A stretch of 64,000 nucleotides of DNA from Phycisphaerae bacterium (GTDB lineage: Bacteria > Planctomycetota > Phycisphaerae > Sedimentisphaerales > Anaerobacaceae): NCBI GenBank assembly GCA_017993835.1, contig JAGOLX010000010.1, forward strand, positions 1 to 64,000. Reading direction: 5' to 3'. Below, piece after piece: positions 32,955-40,258 of the stretch. The number at the start of each line of letters is the position of its first letter. The first letter of the stretch is position 1. The notes beneath the pieces were generated by a model, which searched no databases, was not told the origin of the DNA, and saw only the letters and a list, made by a program, of their open reading frames with translations. A program made the position numbers and the translations under genes.

Positions 32955-33686
32955 ATGGACGTGTCCAGCATTGGATTGAACGCGCTCTTGGGCGCGTATG
33001 GAGCAAAGGCCTCGCATCGCCCCGGCGACCTGGATGAGGCCACCGAACGCCTCATCCACGCCAAGGACAAGGATGGCAATGGGACGCTCAGCGCCGCGGA
33101 GATCTCGATTTCCGACGAGGCCTTCCAACTGGCGGACGCCAACGCCGACGGCGAACTCAGCGCGGACGAACTCAAGAACTCGGTGGATGTCATTGGCAAG
33201 GAGCTGGCGGCGCAAGGGCCGCCGCCTTCGCCTTTCGGCAGGGGGGCCGACGACGAGGATGACGACGAGGACTCCACGGAAACGGCAACTCTGGAGCAGA
33301 TCTTCCAGCAGGCGGATGCCGACGGCGATGGATCGCTCAGCGCCGAGGAGTTCCAGGTTGCGGCGGCACGGATTGCCGAGCAGATGGAGGCCCAGGAACC
33401 GCGGGGGCCTCGCCCTCCACACCCCGATTCTGACGAGGCGGCCGCACGACTGGTTCAGGACCTCGACGAGGACGGCGACGGCGCCTTGAGCGCCCGTGAA
33501 ATACCGATCTCATCCCGAGCCTTCGACTCTGCGGACACCAACCAGGACGGCGTACTCAGTCTCGAAGAGCTTCGGGCCGCATCCAGGCAGACCGCCGAAG
33601 AACCTGCCTCCCGACAGAAGCCGATGCTGGCCTTCTTCCGGCAGGGTTCCGACGATACGACCGAAGCTCTGGATCAGATCGCCTGA
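32955..33686 (+). CDS. EF-hand protein with five calcium-loop motifs
   Basis: A 243-residue acidic protein. Canonical DxDxDG loops are DKDGNGTLSAAE, DANADGELSADE, DADGDGSLSAEE, DEDGDGALSARE and DTNQDGVLSLEE, in two groups (about residues 36-75 and 112-200) separated by an acidic Pro/Asp linker (GADDEDDDEDSTE). There is no signal peptide, so calcium binding would be cytoplasmic unless export is by another route. The linker and the odd number of hands are unusual. It is preceded by AAAGGAG and ends before a strong terminator. Confidence 0.9.
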   Translation: MDVSSIGLNALLGAYGAKASHRPGDLDEATERLIHAKDKDGNGTLSAAEISISDEAFQLADANADGELSADELKNSVDVIGKELAAQGPPPSPFGRGADDEDDDEDSTETATLEQIFQQADADGDGSLSAEEFQVAAARIAEQMEAQEPRGPRPPHPDSDEAAARLVQDLDEDGDGALSAREIPISSRAFDSADTNQDGVLSLEELRAASRQTAEEPASRQKPMLAFFRQGSDDTTEALDQIA

Positions 33687-35259: not shown

Positions 35260-35289
35260 TTGACTTGTCGTGCGACGCTGCGACACTAT
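35260..35289 (+). promoter_or_regulatory. Sigma-70-like promoter, possibly giving a leaderless mRNA
   Basis: TTGACT (35260-35265), 18 bases, CACTAT (35284-35289). The predicted start of transcription (about 35296) coincides with ATG 35297. No Shine-Dalgarno is present upstream. Confidence 0.45.
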
Positions 35290-35296
35290 GGGCACT

Positions 35297-35794
35297 ATGA
35301 CGAACGCAGAGGGCAAAACGCCGAGTGAGAGCACCGTGGAGACACGGTATCTGGTGATGCCGACGCAGGCCAACGCGCAGGGGACCGCCTTCGGCGGGGC
35401 CATCGTCGGCTGGATCGACATGGCCGCGGCTATGGCCGCCCAACGCCATTGCGGGCGGGAGGTCGTGACGGCCGGAATCGACTCGCTGGTCTTCCGCAAG
35501 CCCATCCGCATCGGCGACCACGTCATCCTCAAGGCCGCGGTCAACTACGTGAGCCGGTCCTCGATGGAGGTCGGCGTCCAGGTCGTTCGCGAGGACCCCT
35601 ACACCGGCCAGCAGGTGCTCGCCACCACGGCCCACCTGATGTTCGTGGCCCTGGACGAGAACAAGCAGCCCACTCCCGCGCCGCCCCTGCTGCCGGAAAC
35701 ACGCGAGGAAAAGCGACGCTATGAGAACGCCCGCCTGCGGGTGCAGGCCCGCAAGGAGCGTCTGCGAGCCATCGACCGGGAGAACCAGCCTTGA
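35297..35794 (+). CDS. Acyl-CoA thioesterase, YciA/hotdog family
   Basis: A 165-residue single hotdog-domain thioesterase that hydrolyses acyl-CoA. NAQGTAFGGAIVGWIDMAAA holds the catalytic region (N and the Asp of WIDMAA), and FRKPIRIGDHVILKA and SRSSMEVGVQV are family blocks. The C-terminus has a basic coiled tail (REEKRRYENARLRVQARKER). Start choice is uncertain: ATG 35297 is favoured since the -10 box overlaps the earlier ATGs (35270, 35288), which would imply a leaderless transcript. Confidence 0.88.
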   Translation: MTNAEGKTPSESTVETRYLVMPTQANAQGTAFGGAIVGWIDMAAAMAAQRHCGREVVTAGIDSLVFRKPIRIGDHVILKAAVNYVSRSSMEVGVQVVREDPYTGQQVLATTAHLMFVALDENKQPTPAPPLLPETREEKRRYENARLRVQARKERLRAIDRENQP

Positions 35795-35839: not shown

Positions 35840-36016
35840 GCCGGACTGGAAAAAGGCAGATCGGACCTATGTTCTTCAACGAAATCTCTTGGTTCGATTT
35901 CGTTGAAGAACGCCAAGGCCGGTTCTCTCGAACACGACCGTGGTTTGGGTGGGAAAAATCGATGCGGAGATTTTTCCCGCCCAAAGTAGGTCCGATCTGC
36001 CTTTTTCCAGTCCGGC
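35840..36016. repeat. Multi-branched inverted-repeat element upstream of an unknown gene
   Basis: Outer arms 35841-35868 and 35988-36015 are perfect reverse complements over 28 bases (a further G-C pair extends them). Inside, 35871-35886 pairs perfectly with 35896-35911 (16 bp, 9-base loop), and 35944-35960 pairs with 35969-35985 (17 bp, one G-T pair, 8-base loop). A weak third hairpin may form at 35913-35943 (GTTC-TCTC-GAAC core). The whole would fold as a four-way, cloverleaf-like structure. It ends 24 bases before a GTG start. It may be a non-autonomous mobile element or a structured RNA leader. Confidence 0.85.
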
Positions 36017-36040: not shown

Positions 36041-36880
36041 GTGGACGAAGATAAATACACAATCACCGACACGAAGCAGGACATCCTCAGCCATCCGAGG
36101 AGACGCGACACCATCCACGTCCTGACCCTTGACCCCATGCTGGCGGCCGATATCTGCGAGAGGATCGGTGCGGACAAGCGTCTCGTGCGGTGCAACGTGA
36201 TCTGCCCGCGCGGGACGAACGTTCGGGATATGCTGGAGGCGATGGAGCGGACGGCGCCGGAGACCGCCGCCTCCCGACTGGTCCTCTTCGACGTGCGTCG
36301 CGCCACGTTGCCCAGGCTCCGACACGTCTTCAATGCGGTCGTCGGCTACAATCGCCGGGATTTCAACAGGCTGTGCTTCAGCATCTGCATCGGCGACGGG
36401 CCCCTGAATCTCTTTCGGGACGGCGCCTTCGCGGAGCTGTTCGTCGCGCACCTGGCGGCACAGCGGGTGGACTACCATCCGGCCGTCATTTTCTACGATC
36501 CCTTCCTGCACTACGAACCCAACGAGGCCTTCTTGCAGAGCATCGACGACGACTTCGTCATCCCGGACTCCGTCCCGCAACGGCTGGCCCCCTTCTTCAA
36601 GAGCGGCCAGATGAAGGTCAGCACGATTCGCCAGTTCTTCCGCGCGGTGGACAAGGACGACGAGACCCGCAAGAAACGCCTTCGCATGCTCCGGCATGTC
36701 TACAAGAAGCGACTGGCGGAGATCTTTGCGGGACAGCCGGAGCAGCTCAAGGATCTCCTGAGCCGCAAGGGCATCCAGTGGGCCAGCGAGAAAATGAACC
36801 TCTATCCGCTGTACTTCGAGGACTGGGTGTGCGACCTGATTCGCCAAGCCCGCAAGAATGCGACGGAGAAGAACGGATGA
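36041..36880 (+). CDS. Protein of unknown function behind the branched element
   Basis: A 279-residue soluble protein, no signal or membrane segment. The N-terminal half alternates strands and helices (IHVLTLDPMLAADICERIG; RLVLFDVRRATLPRLR) and reads like a Rossmann-type or response-regulator-like alpha/beta domain. The C-terminal third is helical and very basic (DDETRKKRLRMLRHVYKKRL), which could bind nucleic acid. No catalytic motif is seen and the family is not recognised. The GTG start at 36041 follows AGAAGGGG. The mRNA probably begins with, or just after, the 177-base branched element. Confidence 0.75.
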   Translation: MDEDKYTITDTKQDILSHPRRRDTIHVLTLDPMLAADICERIGADKRLVRCNVICPRGTNVRDMLEAMERTAPETAASRLVLFDVRRATLPRLRHVFNAVVGYNRRDFNRLCFSICIGDGPLNLFRDGAFAELFVAHLAAQRVDYHPAVIFYDPFLHYEPNEAFLQSIDDDFVIPDSVPQRLAPFFKSGQMKVSTIRQFFRAVDKDDETRKKRLRMLRHVYKKRLAEIFAGQPEQLKDLLSRKGIQWASEKMNLYPLYFEDWVCDLIRQARKNATEKNG

Positions 36881-38947: not shown

Positions 38948-40258
38948 TCAGACTGTCTCATCATCAACCAGAATGAACTTGATTTCCGCTTCAGCGGCCA
39001 CGATATCCCCGACCATGGCCTGGCATCGGCAATGGGCGGTCCTGCGTCGCAGGCGGACCGTCTCGGCGATCAGGATGAGCTGATCGCCCGGGACGACGGC
39101 CTTGCGCAGTTTCACATTGTCCATGCTCAGGAGCATGGCGAGTTTGCCCGTGTGCTCCAATCGCTGGGCGAAGAGCAGGCCGGAGACCTGGGCCATCGCT
39201 TCGACGATCAGCACGCCCGGCATGATCGGCGTTCCGGGAAAGTGCCCCTGGAAGAACTGCTCGTTGAAGGTGACGTTCTTGACGCCCTTGATCCGCGTGT
39301 CGCCTTCGATCTCGATGATCTTGTCGACGAGCAGGAAGGGATATCGGTGGGGCAGGATCTTCTGGATCCGCCGGATGTCGAGGATCGCATCGGTCCCGAA
39401 CCGGTCCATTCGCTCCTGCTGCTGGACCGCCTCGTAGAGCTTGCGAACGAGCTGCTGGTTCAGCGCGTGGCCGCTCTTGTAGGCCACGATCCGCCCGATC
39501 ACCGGACGGCCGACCAGCATGAGGTCCCCGATCAGGTCCACGATCTTGTGCCGGACGCACTCGTTGGGAAACCGGTAGACGTTCTTGACCGGTCCGTCCG
39601 TATCGATGACCAGCAGGTCGGAGGGATTGATGTGCGTGCCGAGCCCGCGAGCCCGAAACTCCCGGGCCTCCGCCTCCAGCAGGAAGGTCCGCGCCGGCGC
39701 CATGGTCGTCTCGAACGTGTCGGGGGTCAAGCGGTAGCTGAAGACCTGCCGCCCGATGGCCGGATGACTGCTGTAGTCGAGATCGTAGGTGATGTTCAGC
39801 TCGCCGTCCGTGTCGGGCAACGCGTAGATCGTCGCATCTGCGGCGCTGACGCTGACCGGCTTTCGGATGACGAATTCCTTGCGCGGGTTCTGCTGCTCGA
39901 CGACGCCCGCGGTTTTGAGACTCGTGATGTACGCGGCGCTGCTGCAATCAGGCGCGGGCAACTCGGGTCCGTCCACCTCGATCGTGAGGTTGTCGATCTC
40001 CAGGGCACGCACCGCGGCCAGGCAATGTTCGACGGTCTCGATGCTGACGTCGCCCTTCTTGATGCTCGTGCGACGGCTCCGCTCGGCGATGCTCGGAGCG
40101 GTCGCGGGGATGCGCACGGCGCTGGTGACATCGGTGCGCACGAAGACGATGCCGGTATCCTCTGCGCCCGGGCGGAACGTCACCGTGGCCTCTTGGCCGC
40201 CGAACAGGCCCTTGCCCGTGAGCGTCGCGTCATCCTTTATCGTTTTCTGCAGCTTCAA
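38948..40258 (-). CDS. lpxC: LpxC-FabZ fusion (deacetylase + hydroxyacyl-ACP dehydratase)
   Basis: A 436-residue bifunctional protein. The LpxC half (1-280) removes the N-acetyl group: zinc ligands H78 (ETVEHCLAA), H237 and D241 ([11 protein letters not shown]), catalytic E77 and H264 (KSGHALN). The FabZ half (about 290-436) dehydrates hydroxyacyl-ACP: H339 and E353 in [20 protein letters not shown]. This fusion is known from Bacteroidetes, Chlorobi and Planctomycetes. It begins with TTG at 40258 and overlaps the end of lpxD by 29 bases, so translation is coupled. It competes for the same hydroxyacyl-ACP pool used by LpxA. Confidence 0.96.

Follow-up and report, generated by a model that had tools for sequence, protein, structure and literature searches.

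Rickettsia palindromic elements (RPE; Ogata et al. 2000) are dispersed palindromic repeats of approximately 100-150 bp, positioned both between and within genes; copies of the latter kind keep the reading frame and specify a conserved peptide within metabolic genes that are unrelated to one another (PMC10969869). Bacterial MITEs are shorter than 500 bp, with terminal inverted repeats, no transposase gene, and target duplications in younger copies (PMC10969869). The REP/BIME sequences associated with RAYT transposases are also dispersed palindromes, some of them within genes, and have been reported from Planctomycetes as well (PMC3733652). Among the searchable papers, reports of mobile palindromes lying in frame within functional bacterial genes come from Rickettsia and Wolbachia. 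Both are obligate intracellular bacteria, and weak selection is the usual explanation.

The element described here is most probably an intergenic insertion belonging to a non-autonomous, palindromic, MITE-like family of the Phycisphaerae (Planctomycetota), the in-gene members of which are translated and the stems of which are maintained by pairing as DNA. No description of it in planctomycetes was found in the literature open to search outside subscription journals.

The element and its family

The element occupies positions 35840-36016 on the forward strand (177 bases) of the window, which is the whole stretch of 64,000 nucleotides that was analysed. The gap around it, of 246 bp, is bounded by two genes on the forward strand: a 4HBT thioesterase family gene upstream (35270-35794; Pfam PF03061, E = 2.9e-19) and a gene of 279 amino acids without a Pfam match downstream (36041-36880), the GTG start codon of which, at 36041, follows the element by 24 bases, as stated in an earlier note on this DNA. 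The left (35840-35869) and right (35987-36016) outer arms are exact reverse complements of one another, hence 100% complementary over 30 nt; the outer inverted repeat noted earlier is therefore indeed perfect, at a length of 30 rather than 28 bases. Alignment places the family core, GGAAAAAGGCAGATCGGRCCTA, at 35848-35869. Between the arms, hairpin 1 comes first (35871-35911; stem GTTCTTCAACGAAATC, loop TCTTGGTTC), with 16-nt arms (35871-35886 and 35896-35911) that are 100% paired, and encodes SSTKSLGSISLKN in the canonical frame. A variable spacer (35912-35943) separates it from hairpin 2 (35944-35985; stem TTTGGGTGGGAAAAATC, loop GATGCGGA), the 17-nt arms of which (35944-35960 and 35969-35985) are 94% paired, with one mismatch. 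The two nearly perfect inner hairpins that had been described are thus both confirmed, as is the view that chance cannot account for the structure: the MFE of the element is -133 kcal/mol, compared with -62.6 +/- 4.6 in dinucleotide shuffles (z = -15.3), and none of 200 shuffles matches this fold. By contrast, the weaker third hairpin suggested at the same time is not a trait of the family, as the spacer is left unpaired when 54 copies are folded together with RNAalifold. Kissing loops joining the two inner hairpins were also considered and rejected: they are exact in three copies (L004, L008 and L019), yet the overall signal is weak, with 9 of 500 shuffles doing as well. Elsewhere in the window, an EF-hand protein with several calcium-binding repeats is encoded at 32955-33686 on the forward strand, and a frame at 38948-40258 on the reverse strand, beside lipid A pathway genes, resembles an LpxC-FabZ fusion when judged by eye.

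The window's own genome (6.4 Mb in 115 contigs) was scanned by DNA search and then with a covariance model built from 54 aligned copies. The model identifies a minimum of 36 full-length copies there; copies are about 160-180 bp long, with terminal inverted repeats of the 30-bp class. The search of this genome and its relatives that the earlier note had proposed thus recovers a family of dispersed copies. Matches to the model come from every one of the nine species in the genus, from 24 of the 89 genomes at family level, and from two further families within the order, while in a sample of 246 genomes from the phylum, including the window's own, that genome alone is matched (0 of 245 others). 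An exact 24-base core word, searched for in 84,980 species genomes, is found in Planctomycetota records alone, mostly labelled Phycisphaerae or Phycisphaerales; the viral contigs searched with it gave no match, hence no sign of viral carriage.

Copies vary in their density, interior and surroundings. A single contig carries three full copies within 9 kb (L065, G000:C9:18500-33000). In genome G003, a subfamily (L211, L212) has the same outer arms around much longer interior hairpins (GAAATCCGCTTCCCG...), and the total fold reaches about -200 kcal/mol. At L060 and L061, degraded copies of the element have a second GC-rich repeat (GGCCCAGCCGCCCCCGGCTGGGGAAGGAACACCCC) nested in them, with purine-rich AGAAGGTGRGAAG inverted repeats nearby, and the copies at L003, L008 and L043 adjoin low-complexity CATCAATCATC / TTGATGGTTGATGG tracts.

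Mobility and insertion sites

Empty and filled sites were compared by gap-tolerant pairwise alignments. At the site of the window copy, four relatives have a shorter spacer without the palindrome. Empty orthologous sites are also observed for the copy in PurQ (L010 against L076-L079), where empty relatives read GILPGG-SG-FRQ and the window's genome reads GILPGG-[SEKGRSG...]-FRQ, and for L017 (against L095), L034/L026 (L098/L099), L021 (L109), L051 (L107) and L035 (L105). Direct repeats flank 21 of 79 copies, whereas exchanging flanks at random among the copies gives 4.25 +/- 2.1. Examples from the AT-rich subfamily, flush with the ends CTGGA...TCCAG, are GTTAGAA, TTCATAA, GTTATAA, TCTTGAA and GTTCTTGA. 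These target duplications of 7-8 bp are found in younger copies and are not visible in most of the copies within genes. Taken with the empty orthologous sites, they indicate that the element is mobile. Of the two identities suggested earlier, that of a non-autonomous mobile element with long terminal repeats therefore agrees with the dispersed copies, the empty sites and the target duplications; the remark that no clear duplication could be seen holds for the window copy, where none is visible, but not for the younger copies elsewhere.

No transposase gene or autonomous partner was found, and a pattern search for a longer element with the same ends returned solo arms and remnants only, although the draft assemblies may hide one. 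Transposition would be expected to depend on a putative transposase acting in trans. At five loci (L102, L111, L112, L195 and L196), solo hairpins consisting of the outer arms alone, with the interior gone, are apparent products of decay or deletion.

The history of insertion is complicated by two orthologous in-gene insertions whose inserts are not mutual closest relatives. In PdxB, the copies of G000 and G005 occupy one site, at which the flanks have a high dS of 0.65, yet the inserts differ by only 6%, and neither is closer to the other than to copies elsewhere. In GH127, the copies of G000 and G004 are at the same codon position and again are not nearest relatives. Either some sites have been hit repeatedly, or conversion has occurred between copies.

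Copies within protein-coding genes

Coding potential was scored in the 150 bases either side of each copy. Where a strong coding signal on both sides belongs to a single gene, the frame continues across the element without a stop; the exceptions lie between genes or on a contig with ambiguous bases. There are 20 such in-frame copies, including one added case (L006), of which 16 belong to the window's own genome and the other four to three relatives. By orientation, 16 are sense and four antisense, and all 16 sense copies share a single, stop-free frame, which in the GC-rich subfamily reads (S)EKGRSGLYSSTKSLGSISLKNG..DE.LDARPGFEGEKS..EIFPPQSRPDLPFS. The host proteins recognised by Pfam comprise NadE, PdxB, a radical SAM/SPASM protein, a PfkB-HAD protein, PurQ, an FtsK-type protein, iron hydrogenase-like and URO-D-like proteins, GH127, MTHFR-DUF5981, RNase R and cytochrome c/beta-propeller proteins. 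In PurQ, the amidotransferase domain is split by the insert, and no second copy of either PurQ or NadE was found in the window's genome, both being single-copy. One beta-propeller/cytochrome c gene has been struck in frame at two positions, in two species (L020 and L033).

In PurQ, PdxB and GH127, the three host genes tested, the flanking codons have dN/dS values of 0.09-0.16, indicating strong purifying selection. A stop-free frame in housekeeping genes that remain under such selection suggests that the insert is translated, and functional proteins appear to incorporate approximately 55 additional amino acids. The inserted peptide would be tolerated and is probably unstructured, as has been proposed for the Rickettsia palindromic elements. 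Location within genes is unequally distributed: 19 of 33 GC-type copies are within genes, compared with none of 21 AT-type copies (Fisher p = 5e-6). Stops in the canonical frame are likewise absent from the 16 sense copies within genes but present in seven of the 14 GC-type copies found outside genes (p = 0.0017). This is most simply read as a translatable frame carried by the GC-type and kept open by selection in genes that are needed. The intergenic window copy has a stop in this frame because its hairpin 2 is shorter than in most of the sense copies within genes.

Pairing of the stems and comparison with known systems

Across the family, 97.3% of stem cells are paired, and two-sided changes are seen in 33 of 55 pairs. 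The covariation score is 0.293, against 0.115 when shuffled and 0.044-0.080 in slid controls, and differences between copies are two-sided in 9855 cases and one-sided in 5510, where approximately 2047 two-sided differences would be predicted under independence. Such covariation is normally read as proof of functional RNA. A structured cis-regulatory RNA leader or small RNA, in which selection on the folded molecule preserves the complementarity of the arms, would fit both this signal and the very stable, conserved fold, as well as the location of several intergenic copies just upstream of the housekeeping genes groES, rpsP, tpiA and argC and the presence of the element or a remnant at groES in five species. 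However, selection on RNA tolerates G-U far better than A-C, and there is no excess of G-U among the mispaired intermediates, whether in all copies (43 GU and 49 AC, p = 0.60), in sense-coding copies (11 and 16) or on the transcript strand of intergenic copies upstream of genes (6 and 8). This argues, though indirectly and with a direction of transcription assignable in only part of the intergenic copies, against an RNA leader and in favour of pairing at the DNA level. Furthermore, approximately 45% of the full-length copies in the window's genome are within reading frames, some of them antisense, four relatives lack the element at the window site, the orientation of the interior is flipped at groES, and a search of the window against Rfam at gathering thresholds leaves the element unmatched, the sole match being a tRNA elsewhere in the window. 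The cloverleaf RNA leader put forward in the earlier note is hence very unlikely. Compensating changes, which were to have distinguished RNA from a mobile element, are abundant, but the spectrum of mismatches favours DNA pairing over RNA selection.

The mismatch spectrum is that expected from template switching between inverted arms, a known process by which arms are homogenised and the spacer is inverted (PMC8604942). In the groES leader, full-length copies are found in the same place in four species, with arms that differ yet are each nearly or fully complementary, and with the interior inverted in G000 and G004 relative to G005 and G001. Both signatures of template switching are thereby displayed, although independent insertions at one hotspot could conceivably also have produced the pattern. 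Among other species, G006 has a hairpin without the interior at this position, and G002 and G003 are empty; in G008, an unrelated palindromic repeat (GGAACTGGAATGATGGAATATTGGAG...) lies in the groES leader (L239, G008:C354:11500-12100), as if the spot gathers palindromes. The complementarity of the stems is probably kept by DNA-level pairing, through template-switch correction; a DNA hairpin required for transposition would leave the same mark. Arms and hairpins may thus pair as hairpins or cruciforms in DNA, with imperfect palindromes being corrected by template switching, or a hairpin being needed for transposition, or both, and the pairing of the stems could be explained without any RNA function.

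Two further alternatives concern the fate of the insert and the origin of the arms. Copies within genes might be excised from the mRNA, or skipped by ribosomes in the manner of byp-like bypassing, so that the host proteins are normal. An mRNA fold of -100 to -150 kcal/mol is an unusual obstacle in core enzymes, purifying selection persists in the host genes tested, and the net length of the insert, counted from alignments, varies by site (165, 168, 177 and 189 nt), all of which would be compatible with removal; a mobile element would then be hidden in essential genes, with their proteins unaltered. Nevertheless, every one of these lengths is divisible by three, and the difference in stops between sense copies and GC-type copies elsewhere counts against skipping, because nothing would preserve the frame in a skipped insert, making this scarcely credible. 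The arms might also be partly derived from the host, through a palindromic target or through insertion or template switching that copies flanking bases into the opposite arm; this would apply to the outermost bases only and is compatible with a mobile, translated and DNA-paired element. The outermost bases of the left arm in GH127 (CTGAC) are host codons in the empty relatives, with their inverse on the right arm, and the left junction of the window copy, CCTCTGCCGGAC, recurs in the element-free spacer of G005, hinting that arms may grow into host sequence. On the other hand, pairing averaged over copies falls to near background approximately 7-10 bases outside the core, and the empty sites of L017, L035 and L051 have no palindromic arms. 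At these sites a palindromic target is ruled out as the origin of the entire outer arms, and a partial contribution from the host, to which some outermost bases do seem to point, is rather doubtful.

In behaviour, this mobile palindromic family, probably translated where it falls within genes and probably paired as DNA, matches the RPE. Like these, the element is dispersed through intergenic and intragenic positions, at a slightly greater length (about 160-180 bp), and its copies within unrelated functional genes are in frame with one shared sense peptide. It differs in belonging to the Planctomycetota rather than the Rickettsiales, in its architecture of a single long outer stem around two hairpins, in its detectable 7-8-bp target duplications, and in the concerted evolution of its arms without G-U bias, accompanied by inversion of the interior. 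Its putative separation from RPE by homology is drawn from the restriction of the core word to Planctomycetota in the species genomes searched. The presence of a second such family within PurQ, NadE, PdxB and RNase R, in planctomycete genomes from sediment and other environmental samples, shows that in-frame palindromes are not bound to an obligate intracellular lifestyle, and the many insertions with empty orthologues provide material for testing how new protein segments arise. That palindromes can mimic covarying RNA without being RNA is a proposition for which the concerted, strand-neutral evolution of these stems offers a testable case, and one of relevance to covariation-based RNA discovery.

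The short length, the terminal inverted repeats, the lack of transposase coding and the target duplications, well in excess of expectation (21 of 79 copies against 4.25), are shared with MITEs. Unlike these, the element adds two long internal hairpins, has no autonomous partner that could be found, and includes one subfamily that is stop-free and concentrated in genes. REP/BIME sequences differ in being 20-40 bp rather than 160-180 bp and in making no target duplications, and the element is not a lone hairpin tagged with GTAG or CGTC at the base. The coding palindromes of nematomorph mitochondria similarly show long perfect inverted repeats tolerated within translated genes, but they belong to conserved regions of the proteins, whereas the element is inserted mobile DNA (PMC6649704). 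It is best classed as a family of its own, like both RPE and MITEs in character.
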